Assembly: GCF_016592575.1 (NCBI RefSeq)
Contig: NZ_AP017470.1
Span: forward strand, 2,180,501 to 2,244,500
DNA from: Thermotomaculum hydrothermale
GTDB taxonomy: Bacteria > Acidobacteriota > Holophagae > Thermotomaculales > Thermotomaculaceae
Length of the DNA stretch: 64,000 bases
Direction of reading: 5' to 3'
Part shown: piece by piece, positions 14,148-49,977 of the stretch
How positions within the stretch are numbered: position 1 is the stretch's first letter
How the letters are laid out: each line of letters begins with the position of its first letter
Notes under the pieces: model-generated
The model's input: only the letters and a program-made list of their open reading frames with translations
The model's database searches: none
Told to the model about the DNA's origin: nothing
Translations under genes and position numbers: made by a program

Positions 14148-14621
14148 CTAAAATTGATTTATTATTTTGTATTTTTCTTCCATATATTCCTGTTTTGAGA
14201 TTTTTCCACTTTTGTATAATTTTTCAAGTTTTTGAAGTTTTTCAAGCAGAATATCAGCGCTGTTTCTGTATTGATTTGTATAATACTGTTGCTTTGTGCC
14301 AGTTGAGTGAATGGTATTGCTGTTCTCCTTTTTTTCTTTTCTCAAAATTGCAACAGCTTTAAGTGTACTTGTATCAGGTGTTTTTAATCTTGATATAAGT
14401 TTTACTAATTTCTGGCTTTTTTTTATTTGATTAGCTTTATTCAGAGAAATAAGTGATTTTTTAATTTCCCCTTCAAAGAAAGCAATATACCCTTTTAGCA
14501 AATGGTATGAGTATGAATGGCTTTTGTAACAGTCTTTGTTTTTCCCAAGTAACTTTAATGCCTTCTTCAATCTATTTTCTTTTATTAAATTGAAAACTTC
14601 TTTGTTTTTACATGTTTTCAA
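14148..14621 (-). CDS. C-terminal part of a frame-broken gene: TPR-like region and SHOCT motif
   Basis: As it stands this is a 157-codon frame from a TTG at 14621 with no convincing ribosome binding site. In the same frame, coding continues upstream without a stop to about 14700, reading ...NEVIKTVWPWKEVIDFPDLDL..., and runs into the end of the preceding gene. Removing one base from the 8-base run at 14692-14699 joins the two. The visible part has a helical, TPR-like segment (residues 5-80) and ends in LYKSGKISKQEYMEEKYKI, a typical SHOCT motif. I read it as the C-terminal half of a single periplasmic protein. It lies 8 nt upstream of speE. Confidence 0.7.
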   Translation of the reverse strand: MKTCKNKEVFNLIKENRLKKALKLLGKNKDCYKSHSYSYHLLKGYIAFFEGEIKKSLISLNKANQIKKSQKLVKLISRLKTPDTSTLKAVAILRKEKKENSNTIHSTGTKQQYYTNQYRNSADILLEKLQKLEKLYKSGKISKQEYMEEKYKIINQF

Positions 14622-14676
14622 GTCTAAATCTGGAAAGTCTATAACCTCTTTCCATGGCCAGACTGTTTTTATAACT

Positions 14677-15210
14677 TCATTTGAGGAGTTTAAAAAAAAG
14701 GATTTCTACAACCTTTGATGTTTCAGGGTAAATGGGTGTTTTTGAACAAACAGTGGTTTGAAATTCAATGTTTTTGTTTTTCAATACAAGACCGTCTCTT
14801 GAATGAAATACTGATATTTCAAAATCAATAGTCCCTTTTTTGCATGGAATTTTTCCTTTTAAAAAATCCTTTTCCACTGAGAGATTTTTAAGGTCAACAA
14901 ATATAATGTCAATATTTCCGAAAGTTTTGTAAATCTTTATTAAATCCTTTTCTGTTATCCTTTCCCGGCCTATTTTGTGGTTTTTTAGAAAGTCTGAGAA
15001 TGCTTTGCGATTAATTACCTCTAATTTTGTGTTTTTTTTGATTTCTTCTTCAAGAAAGCCTGTAAACTCGTATGGAGTGTTTTCAGACGGTATAAAAACT
15101 ACTCCGTCTGCTTCTGATTCTATTTCAGGGGAGTGAATAAGTTTTACTTCAAAACCCTTTGCAATGAATGGGATAGCAATTATAATTAAGACAACTATTA
15201 TTTTCTTCAT
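14677..15210 (-). CDS. exported protein, N-terminal part of a frame-broken gene (LpoB/CsgG-like domain suspected)
   Basis: A 177-residue frame beginning with a signal sequence (MKKIIVVLIIIAIPFIAKG). The mixed alpha/beta domain, with IEFQTTVCSKTPIYPETSKVVEILFFKLLK at its end described by positions 148-177, resembles the small CsgG/LpoB-like lipoprotein folds by layout only. The stop at 14677 follows a run of eight T (coding strand). With seven T the frame would continue through 14148 to give one protein of roughly 355 residues with TPR-like and SHOCT parts. Function unknown. First gene of the unit that continues to speE, nadB and the Memo-family gene. Confidence 0.7.
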   Translation of the reverse strand: MKKIIVVLIIIAIPFIAKGFEVKLIHSPEIESEADGVVFIPSENTPYEFTGFLEEEIKKNTKLEVINRKAFSDFLKNHKIGRERITEKDLIKIYKTFGNIDIIFVDLKNLSVEKDFLKGKIPCKKGTIDFEISVFHSRDGLVLKNKNIEFQTTVCSKTPIYPETSKVVEILFFKLLK

Positions 15211-41188: not shown

Positions 41189-42709
41189 ATGAATAAAAAG
41201 ATTGTAAAAAGCGGAGTATTGATTTCTTTAGGCACATTGTTTTCAAGGATTTTAGGGCTTTTAAGGGAGATTGTAACCGCCAATTATTTTGGTGCAGGTA
41301 AAGCCTTTGATTCCTTTGTTGTGGCATTTACAATTCCCAACCTATTCAGAAGGGTTTTAGGGGAAGAGATGTTTGAAAGGGCTTTTATGCCCAGGTTTAA
41401 AAGATTGAAAGAACAGGGGGAGATTGATTCTGCAAAGAGTTTTTTTGTAAGGGTAATTGTTTTTACATTTTTTACATCAATCTTTGCCTGTCTTTTGATT
41501 TATATCTTTGTCCCCCAATTGATTTCCTTAATAGCCCCTGGTTTAAAGGGAGACTCCTACCAATACGCAGTTAAGTTTGGCTATAAACTTATACCTTTTT
41601 TGTTTTTTATTGCCTTTGCCACTCTATTAGGTGCTTTTCTATTGTTTAATGAAAAATCATTTATCTATGCCATTGCCCCCGCCTTTATGAATGTTGGCAC
41701 AATTGGATTTTTAGTTCTTTTCTATAAAAAATTAGGGGAGATATCCATAGTCTACGCATACCTTTTAGGGGCTTTGCTTTTCTTTTTAATTCAGGTGCCT
41801 TTTGCCTTTAAGGTTTATTTTTCAATTGGAAATAGCGGTGGAGAAAAAGGGCGAGTTAATGCAAAAGAGGAATTTAACTCCTCACTTTTTGAGGGGGGGA
41901 AGATATTTGCCCTTTCCATTGTCAATAAAAGCGTTGAGATTGTTGACAGGCTTGTTGCGTCATTGGTTGGAAGCGGTGCAATTTCTTCCCTATGGTACAG
42001 TTTTAGAATAATTCACCTTCCCTTTGCTTTTTTTTCTCTTGCACTGTCAAGGGCACTTGCCCCGGAGTTTTCAAGGCTAAAAGGGAATAGGGACAATAAA
42101 GAGTTTTCTATATTAATAGCAAGGGGATTGCTTATAAATATTGCTATTCTCCTTCCCATTACAGTTTTTTTTATGGTTTTCCCGGATGAAATTATTACTG
42201 TTTTTTACAAAAGGGGGAATTTCGGGACTCACTCTCTTGTTTTAACCTCAAAGGCATTTTTCTACTATTCCCTTGCCCTTCTCCCTATGGGCACTATTGC
42301 GGTTTTAGGAAGGGCTTACTCATCTCTTGAAAACAATACATTTCCCTTGATTGCCTCTATTGTTGGGGCAGTTTTCAATATTGTACTTGACTTTATTCTT
42401 TACAGAACAAGTTTAAAGCAGGGGGGAATTGCACTTGCAACAGCAATTTCTATGTATATTCAGGTTGTAATCCTTTATTACTTTCTATCCAACTTTGGGA
42501 TTAAATTGAAAAGAGAAAATTTTAAAGGTTTGCCCAAAATAATATTTGCACTTATTCCTTACTCGCTATCCCTTTTTGTATTAAAATATTTCATAACAGG
42601 TTTTAAGGGATTTTTCTTTTACGCCTCTTTTATAGGTTTAGGCGGAGTATTTTCTATTTTGTATTTTGCGGGAGTGCTATGGTTGATGAAAAAGCAATTA
42701 AAAAGATAA
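41189..42709 (+). CDS. murJ: lipid II flippase MurJ
   Basis: A 506-residue polytopic membrane protein with about 14 helices. It has the MurJ/MviN signatures SRILGLLREIVTANYFGAG and FTIPNLFRRVLGEEMFERAFMPRF. It moves lipid II to the outer face of the inner membrane for peptidoglycan synthesis. An in-frame ATG 57 nt further upstream would add an unlikely N-terminal extension; the one at 41189 begins directly before the first helix. It overlaps murG by 31 nt, and murG and mraY follow, so the operon collects the three lipid-linked steps. Confidence 0.95.
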   Translation: MNKKIVKSGVLISLGTLFSRILGLLREIVTANYFGAGKAFDSFVVAFTIPNLFRRVLGEEMFERAFMPRFKRLKEQGEIDSAKSFFVRVIVFTFFTSIFACLLIYIFVPQLISLIAPGLKGDSYQYAVKFGYKLIPFLFFIAFATLLGAFLLFNEKSFIYAIAPAFMNVGTIGFLVLFYKKLGEISIVYAYLLGALLFFLIQVPFAFKVYFSIGNSGGEKGRVNAKEEFNSSLFEGGKIFALSIVNKSVEIVDRLVASLVGSGAISSLWYSFRIIHLPFAFFSLALSRALAPEFSRLKGNRDNKEFSILIARGLLINIAILLPITVFFMVFPDEIITVFYKRGNFGTHSLVLTSKAFFYYSLALLPMGTIAVLGRAYSSLENNTFPLIASIVGAVFNIVLDFILYRTSLKQGGIALATAISMYIQVVILYYFLSNFGIKLKRENFKGLPKIIFALIPYSLSLFVLKYFITGFKGFFFYASFIGLGGVFSILYFAGVLWLMKKQLKR

Positions 42710-44664
42710 AAGTATTGCTTACAGGAGGGGGCACAGCAGGCCATGTAATCCCCTGTATAGCAATTTACAATATTTTGAAAAAGCACTTTGAGGTTGAGAA
42801 AACACTTTATCTCGGGCTTAAAGGTAAGGCGGAAGAGGTAATTGTTCCCAAGCAAAATATCCCCCTTGAATTTATAAAAACTTCCCCCTTTGCAGGGAAA
42901 TCTGGATTAAATAAGTTTAAGGCACTTTTGTCAATTTCTGTGGGAGTGCTTCAATCTATAGGAAAAATAGTAAAGTTTAAACCTGATTTAATTGTTGGTG
43001 CCGGCGGCTATGTCTCTGCACCGGTTATTGTTGCAGGATTTCTGTTAAAGCCGTTTTTAAAACACAGGATTGTTTTGGACGAGCAAAACCTTGTGCCCGG
43101 TTTGTTAAACAAGGTTGCTTCCTTATTTGCAGATACTGTTTTTGTTAACTTTAAAGAGAGTTCTTACTTTATCTGGAGCAATCAATCGGTATATACAGGC
43201 TATCCTGTTAGAAGCCAGTACCTTGAAGATTACAATAGTGAAGATTTCAAGGAAAAGTTGGGCTTTTCAAGGGATAAGAATATTGTGTTAATAACTGGCG
43301 GTTCATTGGGGGCAAGGACTTTAAACAGGCTTGTTGCAGCTTCAATCAAGGAGTTGTCTGAATTTAAAAATACTTTTTTTGTGCATTCAATAGGTTTAAA
43401 CACTTCAAATTATTACAATGCCTTTGAAGATACACTTAGTATTTTAAAAAAATCAGGGTTAGAAATTGAGGTTAAAGACGATGAGATAAAAGCCTATAAA
43501 GGTAATGAGGTTTTTTACACTGGAAAAAGGTTTATAGATAATATCTTTGACTGGCAAAAGGCAGCAGACTTGATAATTTCAAGGGCTGGGGCTGGTGCCA
43601 TATCTGAAATTCTCGCTTTAGGCAAAGCTTCAATCCTCGTTCCTAAAAGGGGGCTTCCAGGAGACCATCAGGAGTTAAACGCAATAGGTATTGCTGAAAA
43701 AGAGGCTTGCGAGGTATTGTTTGAAAAGAGGAAAAACGGTGATGAGTTTATAGAAAAGAATGAGTTTCTCTCTCTTTTAAAAACAATGCTTGAAAACAAG
43801 GAAAAGAGAGAGGAGATGGGGAAAATTGCAAAATCACTATTTTTCCCGAAATGTGAAGAGATAATTGTTGAAACCGTTACCAAACTTCTTAATGGGGAAG
43901 ATGATGAGATTAACTTTTTAACAGGAGTTTTTGAGCCTCAATTTGTTAAATTTCAAAGATACTTTGATAATCTTGTAAGGTACCTTGATGCAATACCTTC
44001 CTCAGATAGGGGAAAAAACCTTTATGCAAGGTTTTACAGCATAAAGGTTGAGGAGTTTTTGCAGTCAAAGGATTTTATGACTGTAAACAAGGGGATAAAG
44101 CTTGTTGGGGCATTGAGGCTTGAAAAGTATTACTCCTTCCTATGGCAAAACTTTAAAAATTTTAAAGGATATTTAAGGAGAAATACACTTATTGCCTTTA
44201 GAAAATCAGAAAAGTTTTTCCCTGAGTTTGTAAATATTATTGAATCAGGTTTAAACGATTCTTACTTTGAGGCAAGGAGAGAGGCTATTGCACTTTTCAG
44301 GCGTTTTTATAAAGAACTTTCAGCAAGTGATAATATAAAGAAAAAAATTCTTGAAAATTTAGATAAAAGATTTGAAAGTTTTGAGGTGATTGCCGAAAGC
44401 ATTAAAGCATCTGCTTTTATACTTGATGAGGATAGTTTTATAAAATTGAATAAGAGATTTTTAACCCATAAAAATGTGAGAATTAGAGAGGCCTTGCTTG
44501 ATGCGGTAAGGCTTGCAATAGACTATTCCAGTTTTTCTGATATTGAAAAGCTTACAGTTTTTTTAAAGAAAATGCTTATAACAACCTCTGAGTTTAAACC
44601 TGTTTACAGTGTAAGGGAAAAGTATTTCAAAACTCTTAAAATATTAGAGGGAAAAAATGATTAA
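42679..44664 (+). CDS. murG: MurG (UDP-GlcNAc transferase) with a ~250-residue HEAT-like C-terminal extension
   Basis: A 661-residue protein; usual MurG is about 350-370 residues. Residues 1 to about 405 are a full MurG, with GGGTAGHV (16-23), VGAGGYVSAPVIVAG, DEQNLVPGLLNK, TGGSLGARTLN and SRAGAGAISEILALGKASILVP. It adds GlcNAc to lipid I at the cytoplasmic membrane face. Residues about 415-661 form alpha-helical repeats suggestive of HEAT/ARM units (e.g. YFEARREAIALFRRFYKE and KNVRIREALLDAVRLAI). The extension is in frame and overlaps mraY by 8 nt, so it is not an annotation artefact. GGGAG precedes the ATG. The function of the extension is unknown. Confidence 0.92.
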   Translation: MVDEKAIKKIKVLLTGGGTAGHVIPCIAIYNILKKHFEVEKTLYLGLKGKAEEVIVPKQNIPLEFIKTSPFAGKSGLNKFKALLSISVGVLQSIGKIVKFKPDLIVGAGGYVSAPVIVAGFLLKPFLKHRIVLDEQNLVPGLLNKVASLFADTVFVNFKESSYFIWSNQSVYTGYPVRSQYLEDYNSEDFKEKLGFSRDKNIVLITGGSLGARTLNRLVAASIKELSEFKNTFFVHSIGLNTSNYYNAFEDTLSILKKSGLEIEVKDDEIKAYKGNEVFYTGKRFIDNIFDWQKAADLIISRAGAGAISEILALGKASILVPKRGLPGDHQELNAIGIAEKEACEVLFEKRKNGDEFIEKNEFLSLLKTMLENKEKREEMGKIAKSLFFPKCEEIIVETVTKLLNGEDDEINFLTGVFEPQFVKFQRYFDNLVRYLDAIPSSDRGKNLYARFYSIKVEEFLQSKDFMTVNKGIKLVGALRLEKYYSFLWQNFKNFKGYLRRNTLIAFRKSEKFFPEFVNIIESGLNDSYFEARREAIALFRRFYKELSASDNIKKKILENLDKRFESFEVIAESIKASAFILDEDSFIKLNKRFLTHKNVRIREALLDAVRLAIDYSSFSDIEKLTVFLKKMLITTSEFKPVYSVREKYFKTLKILEGKND

Positions 44665-46431: not shown

Positions 46432-47727
46432 ATGCCGAGAAGAAGTAGCGCACAGCCTTCACCAAAGGACTTTATCAGCGCAATGCATCAGCTTGCGCAC
46501 GACAAAAACATTGAGTACGAATTGATAATTGAAATGCTCAAAGAAGCAATGATTTCTGCTGCAAGGAAGTACTTTAAAAATGATTCAGAGTTTGAGGTGG
46601 AAATCAATGATGAGACGGGGGAAATCAGAGTTTTTGCTTTGAAAGAGGTTGTTGACAAGGTGGAAGACCCTAAAACTCAGATTTCCCTTGAAGATGCAAA
46701 AAATTACAAAGAGGATGCTGAGATAGGTGAAACAATTAAGATTGAAAAAGACAAAGATTCAATGGGCAGAATTGCAGCAAATGCTGCAAAGCAGGTTATT
46801 ATGTCTAAAATCAAGGACTTTGAAAGGTTTCACATTTACAATGAGTTTAAAGAGAGAATAGGCGAAGTTGTGAATGTTCCGGTAAGAAGGTTTGAAAGGG
46901 GAAATGTTGTTGTTGATTTAGGAAAAACTGAGGGGGTAATTAGAAGAGATCAGTTAATCCCCGGGGAAAGGTTCTCAGTTGGAGATAGGGTGAGAGCTGT
47001 AATAGTTGATGTTGCCAAAGGTGGTGATTTACAGGTTCAACTTTCAAGAACTGATCCAAGACTTTTAATAAAACTGTTTGAAATGGAAGTTCCTGAGGTT
47101 TACGAGGGAACTGTTATTATAAAAAATATTGTCAGAGAACCGGGAGAAAGGTCTAAGGTTGCTGTTTATTCAACAGAACCGGATATTGACCCTATTGGAG
47201 CCTGTGTTGGTGTTGGCGGTTCAAGGATTAAGGCTATATTGAGAGAATTAAAAGGTGAAAAGGTTGACATAATTAAATACGAAGACGACATTGAAAAATT
47301 CGCTGAAAATGCTCTATCCCCTGCCAAATTATTAAGGGTAGCTATTGCAGATAGAGAGACCAAAAGACTTGAGGTTATAGTTTCAGACGACCAGTATTCC
47401 CTTGCAATAGGGACACACGGCCAGAATGTAAGGCTTGCAAGCAAGCTTGTAGGCTGGACAATAGATGTTAAGCGTGAGGCGGATAAAAAAGAAGAAATAA
47501 AAAAACAGATGGGTGGAGGAAGCGACGAAGAGCATGGTGATTTGAAGGAGTTGAAGGGGTTAGGTAAGAAAAAGATTGAAAAACTGGAAGAAGCTGGTTT
47601 TACCAGTATCCAGGATGTGGCTGACGCATCGGTTGATGAATTATCCGCCGTTGAAGGTATAGGAGAAAAATCTGCTGAAAAATTGATAGAGCAGGCTAAA
47701 AAGGCACTACTCGGGGAGGACAACTAA
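46432..47727 (+). CDS. nusA: transcription termination/antitermination factor NusA
   Basis: A 431-residue NusA. It has the N-terminal RNA polymerase-binding domain (about 1-130), S1 domain (about 135-200; ERIGEVVNVPVRRFERGNVVVDLG), two KH domains (about 205-345; DPIGACVGVGGSRIKAIL and IGTHGQNVRLASKLVGW) and a C-terminal helix-hairpin-helix region (about 365-431; LKGLGKKKIEKLEEAGF and VEGIGEKSAEKLIEQA). NusA modulates pausing, termination and antitermination. Its stop overlaps the infB start by one base. Confidence 0.96.
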   Translation: MPRRSSAQPSPKDFISAMHQLAHDKNIEYELIIEMLKEAMISAARKYFKNDSEFEVEINDETGEIRVFALKEVVDKVEDPKTQISLEDAKNYKEDAEIGETIKIEKDKDSMGRIAANAAKQVIMSKIKDFERFHIYNEFKERIGEVVNVPVRRFERGNVVVDLGKTEGVIRRDQLIPGERFSVGDRVRAVIVDVAKGGDLQVQLSRTDPRLLIKLFEMEVPEVYEGTVIIKNIVREPGERSKVAVYSTEPDIDPIGACVGVGGSRIKAILRELKGEKVDIIKYEDDIEKFAENALSPAKLLRVAIADRETKRLEVIVSDDQYSLAIGTHGQNVRLASKLVGWTIDVKREADKKEEIKKQMGGGSDEEHGDLKELKGLGKKKIEKLEEAGFTSIQDVADASVDELSAVEGIGEKSAEKLIEQAKKALLGEDN

Positions 47728-48098
47728 TGGCTAAAAAAAGAGTGCACGAATTAGCAAAAGAGTTAAATGTTTCAAATAAGGAATTAATTGAATTTTTAAA
47801 TTCAGAAGGATACGAAATTAAATCTCATATGAGTTCGGTACCTGAAGAAAGTGTTGCAGAGGTAACTAAACACTTTAAGGGTGATAAATCTGATAAAAAA
47901 ACCAAAAAAGAGGGTACCAAAAAACCTGCTGCTAAAAAGAAAGCAGTAAAAAAAGGTGAAAAAGAAGAAAAAAAGGATTCCAGACCATCTAAAAAAATCG
48001 AAAAGAAAGAAACAAAACCAAAAAAGAAAAAAAGGCAACTGAAAAGAAAGTTGAAAAGAAAGAGGCTAAAAAGCCTAAAAAAGAGACAAAGAAAGTAG
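47727..48098 (+). CDS. infB: translation initiation factor IF-2, N-terminal fragment (frame broken)
   Basis: This frame starts at the normal infB position, with an IF2_N domain (residues 1-55; VHELAKELNVSNKELIEFLNSEGYEI) and the usual Lys/Glu-rich linker. After about residue 102 it goes out of the expected frame: the Glu codons vanish, leaving only Lys, Arg, Leu and Gln, and it stops at 48098. The natural linker continues one base back (-1) from about 48026, reading ATEKKVEKKEAKKPKKETKK, until a TAG at 48173. A second -1 step near 48160-48171 restores the frame of the main IF-2 body at 48292-49977. A joined product would have about 750 residues. Confidence 0.8.
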   Translation: MAKKRVHELAKELNVSNKELIEFLNSEGYEIKSHMSSVPEESVAEVTKHFKGDKSDKKTKKEGTKKPAAKKKAVKKGEKEEKKDSRPSKKIEKKETKPKKKKRQLKRKLKRKRLKSLKKRQRK

Positions 48099-48291
48099 AA
48101 GAAAAACCTAAAAAAGAAGAGAAAAAGCAGAAAAAGGAAGCTAAAAAAGAAAAGGAAGTAAAAAAGAAAAAGTAGTTGCTAAGAAAAAAGAAGAAAAAAA
48201 GTACGAACCTGGAGAGTTAGGCATAATTGAATTATCTGAGTTTACCACTGTAAGGCAACTTGCTGCAAAAATTGGAAGAAAAACAAAAGAA

Positions 48292-49977
48292 GTGATGGCA
48301 AAGTTAAAGGAAAAAGGGGTAAATGCAGGCGCCAATCAAATGATAGAGTTTGATCTTATTGAAGAAGTTGCAGGGGAATTTGGTTACCTTGTTGAAAAAA
48401 TTCCCTATGAACATGAGGCTCTTGTTGAACTTGAAAAACCGGATCCTGAAGATAAATTAAAAGAAAGGCCTCCTATTGTTACCTTAATGGGGCATGTTGA
48501 CCATGGAAAAACCTCACTCCTTGATAAAATAAGGCACAGTAGAATTACTGCAAAGGAGGCAGGTGGAATAACACAGCATATAGGTGCATACCAGGTTGAG
48601 TTTAACGGCAAGAAGATAACATTTCTTGATACCCCGGGACACGAAGCCTTTACAAAAATGAGGGCGAGAGGGGCAAATGTTACTGACATAGTTATTCTCG
48701 TTGTTGCCGCAGACGAAGGAATTAAGCCTCAAACTGTTGAGGCTATAAACCATGCTAAGTCAGCAGGGGTTGCCATAATTGTGGCAATAAACAAAATTGA
48801 TAAGCCTGAAGCAAACCCCGACATGGTAAAAAGGCAATTGCTTGAGCATGACCTTGTTGTTGAGGATTACGGTGGCGATATTATTTCGGTTCCTGTTTCT
48901 GCAAAAAGCGGACAGGGAATTGATGAATTGCTTGAATACATTCTTTTAGTTGCTGAATTACTTGAATTAAAGGCAAATCCTGACAGACCGGCAAAGGGTT
49001 ATATTATTGAAGCAAAAATTGACAAGGGAAGAGGCCCTGTTGCCACCGTCCTTGTTCAAAATGGGACATTAAAGAGAGGGGATACATTTACCTGCGGATA
49101 CACCTACGGAAAAGTCAGGGGTATGTTCAACGATTTAGGTAAACAGGTAAAGGAAGCACCTCCATCAACCCCTGTTGAGGTTTTAGGCTTTAACACAATC
49201 CCTGATGCAGGAGACAAATTTTATGTTGTACAGAACGAGCAGGTGGCAAGGGAGATTGCTGAAGTTAAAAAGGTAAGGGATGAATCAACAAAACAGCAGG
49301 CACAGCCTAAAAAATTAAGCCTTGAAGATTTGTTTAAGAAGATGGAAGAGGGAGAGGTTAAAGAGCTCCCAATTGTTTTAAAGTGTGATGTTCAGGGTTC
49401 AGTTGAAACTATTGATGCACTTTTAAATAAACTTTCTAACCCTGAAGTAAAGATAAATGTTATTCACAAAGCAGTTGGGGCAATTACAGAAAACGATGTT
49501 CTTCTCGCATCTGCATCAAACGCAATTATTGTTGGATTCCATGTAAAGGCGGATAAAAAGACAATGAAGCTTGCTGAACAGGAAGGTGTTGAGATTAGAA
49601 TCCACAACATAATCTATGAATTGACAAATGAGATTAAGGCAGCCATTGAAGGTATGCTTGAGCCTGAAATAAAGGAAGAGGTAATAGGCAGGCTTGAAGT
49701 AAGAAAGGTATTCAAAGTGCCTAAAGTTGGATTTGTTGCAGGCTGCTATGTTCAGGAAGGATACATAACAAGAAAATCAATGGTAAGGGTTTACAGAGAT
49801 AACATACTTATTCATGAAGGAAGAATTTCATCCCTGAAGAGATTTAAAGACGATGTATCTGAAGTTAAGGCAGGATACGAATGTGGATTGTCAATTGAAA
49901 ACCTGAAAGACATCAGAGAGGGTGATGAAATAGAAGCATACATCAATGTTGAGGTTAAGAAAACCTTAGATAAATGA
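48292..49977 (+). CDS. infB: translation initiation factor IF-2, main body
   Basis: A 561-residue frame with start codons GTG 48292 and ATG 48295. It holds part of a second IF2_N domain, which actually begins in the same frame at about 48226, then the G domain: [12 protein letters not shown] (G1), DTPGHEAF (G3), NKID (G4). The beta-barrel domain II, domain III and the C-terminal fMet-tRNA-binding domain ([24 protein letters not shown]) follow. IF-2 brings fMet-tRNA to the 30S subunit. The true start is probably at 47727, through two -1 frame changes. An internal start like that of E. coli IF2-2/IF2-3 would also give a working protein from here, but no convincing RBS precedes 48292. Confidence 0.93.

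Follow-up and report, generated by a model that had tools for sequence, protein, structure and literature searches.

Initiation factor IF-2 is the product of a single core gene, and yet the deposited infB sequence of Thermotomaculum hydrothermale is spread over three reading frames. The locus lies within the window, which is the whole stretch of 64,000 nucleotides analysed here (contig NZ_AP017470.1, positions 2,180,501 to 2,244,500; all coordinates below are counted from its first letter). The question therefore was, whether infB is expressed in this organism by two successive recoding events or whether the deposited sequence is incomplete at two positions.

Frame structure of the infB locus

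The infB gene was found in its usual position 3' of rimP and nusA, the names being assigned by eye from the translations. A further ORF of the window (42679-44664) encodes a protein of 661 aa, which by eye is MurG-like with a long C-terminal extension.

The first-pass annotation had described a reading path with a start at 47727, a stop at 48098, a TAG at 48173 and the body of IF-2 in a third frame. This path was confirmed by the open reading frames and by the Pfam domains (Table 1). Frame 1 encodes the first IF2_N domain (PF04760, E 4e-16) and loses its sense after about 48026; its stop codon is located at 48096-48098. Frame 2 is open from 47993 to 48175 and encodes a Lys/Glu linker. Both steps between the frames are of the -1 type, as though one base were absent at each of them. 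This had likewise been claimed and agrees with the open frames as well as with a codon-usage frame model, which is blind to gene names and switched by -1 at 48023 and 48163. The distance between the two breaks is 140 nt. One +1 shift could not substitute for the two -1 shifts, because frame 1 ends at 48098 while frame 3 opens only at 48145, so that the two frames do not overlap.

Table 1. Segments and breaks of infB and the further frame breaks of the assembly. Positions refer to the window unless a sampled piece (L number) is given; open frames are compared with those of relatives.
Feature	Position	Strand	Description
infB 5' part, frame 1	47727..48098	+	First IF2_N and start of Lys/Glu linker (Pfam search)
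infB linker, frame 2	48027..48175	+	Open-frame reading; ends at TAG 48173-48175
infB 3' part, frame 3	48145..49977	+	Second IF2_N, GTPase, EF-G_D2-like and IF-2 domains (Pfam search)
First infB break	48020..48033	+	A6-G-A7; A_AAA_AAG 48020-48026 in phase with frame 1; frame model switch 48023
Second infB break	48160..48171	+	A6-G-A5; A_AAA_AAG 48160-48166 in phase with frame 2; frame model switch 48163
maeB	L047:11342		Open frame 310 aa vs 747-764 in 6 relatives
recJ	L104:19800		Open frame 129 vs 566-588 in 6 of 7 relatives; seventh (G002) 190
Biotin carboxylase	L113:14795		Open frame 244 vs 509-544 in 6 relatives
Solute-binding protein fusion	L046:2459		Open frame 361 vs 1066-1114 in 5 of 6 relatives; sixth 628, near contig start
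SpoIIE-type phosphatase	L042:1249		Open frame 310 vs 504-540 in 7 relatives
Gene of the window	14148-15210	-	178 aa vs 248-347 in four same-genus relatives

Comparison with relatives and with the rest of the assembly

The body of IF-2 was searched in 41 genomes, one of them the window's own. Among the 40 others, which are class relatives, an orthologue was found in 37; only weaker GTPase matches were obtained from G002, G003 and G038. The length of the open frame was taken as the deciding measure, since a stop-free match is uninformative (the window's own body is also stop-free). The open frame containing the body comprises 685-1095 codons in 36 of the 37 relatives versus 610 in the window's genome, and in the 37th (G007), whose contig ends within the body, it measures 410 codons. 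The upstream reach was checked in the 28 relatives whose loci include the whole body, and upstream of the GTPase motif the frame stays open for 191-570 codons, in six cases as far as the locus sequence goes. Two metagenome-assembled Acidobacteria, G001 and G004 (L001 and L002), belong to the same genus as the window's organism. G001, 96% identical in the body, has 685 open codons up to the contig edge, and this contig starts inside the linker but includes both break sites. G004, 91% identical in the body, has 755 open codons beginning before the start codon. The comparison with relatives, which the first-pass annotation had named as a check, thus gave a single open frame through the linker in all orthologues except the one truncated by its contig: the frame arrangement of infB is not conserved and its breaks are confined to this assembly.

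Further breaks were sought in the same genome (G000). A protein-level comparison with G004 revealed no break in 46 kb aligned. A larger one (197 queries, 163.5 kb aligned) detected one break in G000, namely that in the biotin carboxylase gene, and the reverse comparison (191 queries, 160.4 kb) one break in G004, near a gene start. The breaks of infB were not detected by the larger comparison, presumably owing to the strong divergence of the linker, and for this reason the codon-usage frame model was added. It was run on 864 kb of G000 (37% of the assembly; 41 pieces including the window) and yielded 17 candidates, two of which are the infB breaks. Six others were confirmed as private by longer open frames in relatives, the queried piece being compared with orthologues among eight relatives (Table 1), and the remaining nine resemble ordinary gene boundaries, as judged from context alone. 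In the control genome G004, where the model was limited to pieces over 5 kb, three candidates were found in 479 kb (L069:6601, L078:18062, L094:7608), two of them with no start codon nearby, and G004 may itself hold frame breaks.

Three of the six confirmed breaks are compatible with the loss of one base, the three others with the gain of one. The latter are beyond rescue by ribosomal -1 slippage; ordinary one-base errors explain all six. Five coincide with or adjoin a run (T6, A7, G6, T8, A7), including the gene at 14148-15210, whose break near 14692-14699 lies beside a run of eight; the maeB break lies in GG. The motif AAAAAAG is absent from the 45 nt before each of the six breaks. Among the matches listed for the relatives, internal stops occur in three of six for maeB and in four of seven for recJ, and the open frames are long except that of recJ in G002. 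The stops in recJ may be caused by the query, which covers residues upstream of the start and downstream of the break.

Two breaks within such a short distance exceed the average error rate. The sample contains 10,902 A/T runs of at least 5, among them 1,099 of length 7, 304 of length 8 and 28 of length 9; beyond length 8 the numbers drop steeply, alike in G000 and G004. With an average rate of six other breaks per 10,902 A/T runs of 5 or more, about 0.01 breaks are expected in the 21 runs at 47880-48215 versus the two observed, and the clustering exceeds what a uniform error would give. With 16 A-runs in 300 nt the linker ranks highest among the 65 dense stretches that the sample yielded. However, A6+-G-A5+ sites occur 18 times in the sample; 16 of them lie in frames which are open for at least 121 codons on one strand, and the two exceptions are the infB breaks. 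Local sequence context or low coverage, or a merging of the runs across the single G, might explain the clustering. A genome-wide signature of homopolymer truncation was not seen, the run-length spectrum of G000 matching that of G004. The errors, if they are errors, are therefore rare and not systematic, and rare errors would not show in such a spectrum.

Taken together, the two breaks very probably represent one-base under-calls in the deposited linker sequence of a gene that is intact in the organism. According to this explanation infB would be one ordinary gene, and one base would be missing from its deposited sequence at each of the two A-rich sites, A6-G-A7 and A6-G-A5, most likely as a result of homopolymer under-calling. 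Of the two readings offered by the first-pass annotation, under-called A-runs are supported by the private nature of the breaks and by the six further ones. Slippage is supported by the heptamers, which are frequent by composition and over-represented in phase in the genes of this genome, and by a weak fold after the first site only.

Deletions and slippage as alternatives

Real one-base deletions, recently acquired in the sequenced culture, are an unlikely explanation. IF-2 would then have to be supplied from a downstream start or by low-level suppression. The frame of the body is complete from 48145, three forms of IF2 from alternative starts are described for infB of Escherichia coli (PMC12350097), and a study that lists infB frameshift mutations in public genomes of clinical Mycobacterium tuberculosis isolates also mentions high-level suppression of an rpoB frameshift in E. 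coli (PMC7022156). The six other private breaks could likewise be mutations. However, the first ATG, GTG or TTG of frame 3 is the GTG at 48292, which falls within the second IF2_N domain (about 48238-48387) and is preceded by only a weak ribosome-binding site, as judged by eye. That one essential gene should have suffered two deletions, while recJ, maeB and the biotin carboxylase gene carry similar breaks of both signs, is also fitted better by errors. A base-calling error would be the more plausible cause than a recent mutation.

Slippage, ribosomal and transcriptional together, is a remote explanation. For the ribosomal variant, two serial -1 shifts at A_AAA_AAG, the position of the heptamers is the first argument: as had been claimed, the motif lies in phase directly before each step, at 48020 and 48160, and in this respect infB is unlike the six other breaks, none of which has the heptamer nearby. 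An in-phase A_AAA_AAG is also common to infB and the programmed -1 frameshift of dnaX. Unlike dnaX, however, the split of infB is not conserved in relatives, no clearly adequate stimulators were found, and two serial shifts would be required for an essential product. The annotation had further pointed out that heptamers can occur by chance in such an A-rich linker, and this proved correct: 12 copies of AAAAAAG are present within 47727-48400 (674 nt), and five of them (47969, 48020, 48028, 48160, 48195) match the phase of the reading path, although this path requires no shift at 47969 and 48195. The in-phase heptamer is common in the genome as well. In 41 pieces of G000, 521 genes of at least 200 codons contain 262 copies distributed over 195 genes, versus 166.4 (sd 10.4) after synonymous shuffling; in 40 pieces of G004, 294 genes contain 156 copies versus 87.7 (sd 10.3) after shuffling of synonymous codons. 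If ribosomes shifted efficiently at A_AAA_AAG, avoidance of the heptamer might be expected, an argument that is not strong alone. A tRNA-Lys gene was absent from the 41 sampled pieces of G000.

Stimulators of the dnaX type comprise a Shine-Dalgarno-like element upstream or a structure about 5-8 nt downstream of the heptamer. The RNA 3' of the first site is predicted to fold with -11.4 kcal/mol (z -3.9), which is more stable than 200 of 200 shuffled sequences. The fold consists mainly of two weak hairpins of 5 bp (48036-48053 and 48063-48076), which start 9 and 36 nt 3' of the heptamer. No such fold was seen in G001 and G004, where stretches of roughly corresponding position were chosen by eye (z -0.67 and +0.80), and no downstream structure was found after the second site when compared with shuffled sequences (z +1.1). 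The earlier statement that no strong downstream structure is present hence holds for the second site. Upstream of the second site an AGGA at 48153-48156 lies at the limit of the spacing reported to be stimulatory, and by eye GAGG, GGAG and AGGA are all absent from the 30 nt upstream of the first site.

Efficiency is a further obstacle. In E. coli A_AAA_AAG without stimulators is reported to slip at about 0.3%, and slippery heptamers in the best 3' context reach at most 3.7% (PMC4066793). With such a maximum for a single shift, no more than about 0.1% of full-length product would result from two in series, and a slippage of 0.3% would not suffice where an essential gene depends on two serial shifts. 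We regard two serial ribosomal shifts as extremely improbable. A related scenario is likewise remote. It assumes two real -1 breaks and a truncated N-terminal product as the majority species, with full-length IF-2 made by slipping twice in succession within the poly-lysine linker; if true, this double slip would tie the supply of IF-2 to decoding accuracy.

Transcriptional slippage, which would add bases to part of the infB mRNA, is barely conceivable: the A-runs at the first break (6 and 7) and at the second (6 and 5) would offer sites for it, but they fall short of the length of about nine A/T taken for this process (PMC1088944), and frequent slippage at runs of 5-7 would scramble many genes of a genome with so many runs of 7 and 8. 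Poly-A slippage is described for Thermus dnaX and, in a review, for genes of Buchnera and Blochmannia (PMC5009743). These sites are A-rich like those of infB, but the run of Thermus dnaX consists of nine A, as opposed to 5-7 in infB (PMC1088944). According to the same source, a large share of the 108 bacterial genomes compared show selection against A/T runs from nine onwards, and shorter slippage runs are allowed in some bacteria.

Known systems and significance

In full-text literature searches no case of double recoding in infB was found, and frameshift mutations in infB of M. tuberculosis were the related observation mentioned. These concern the same essential gene in public genomes, and the passage that deals with them mentions no double -1 arrangement (PMC7022156). 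The breaks rather resemble the singletons of the GeneTack survey, for which sequencing errors are expected rather than genuine indels (PMC3711429): as in infB, a break validated by homologues is confined to one genome, while infB differs in having two breaks.

If real, the arrangement would mean that a core initiation factor is recoded twice. Most likely, however, the double frame break is a sequencing error and not a new recoding system. The assembly probably carries scattered one-base errors, with 8 breaks found in 864 kb, and apparent pseudogenes and frameshifts in this genome need to be checked accordingly.
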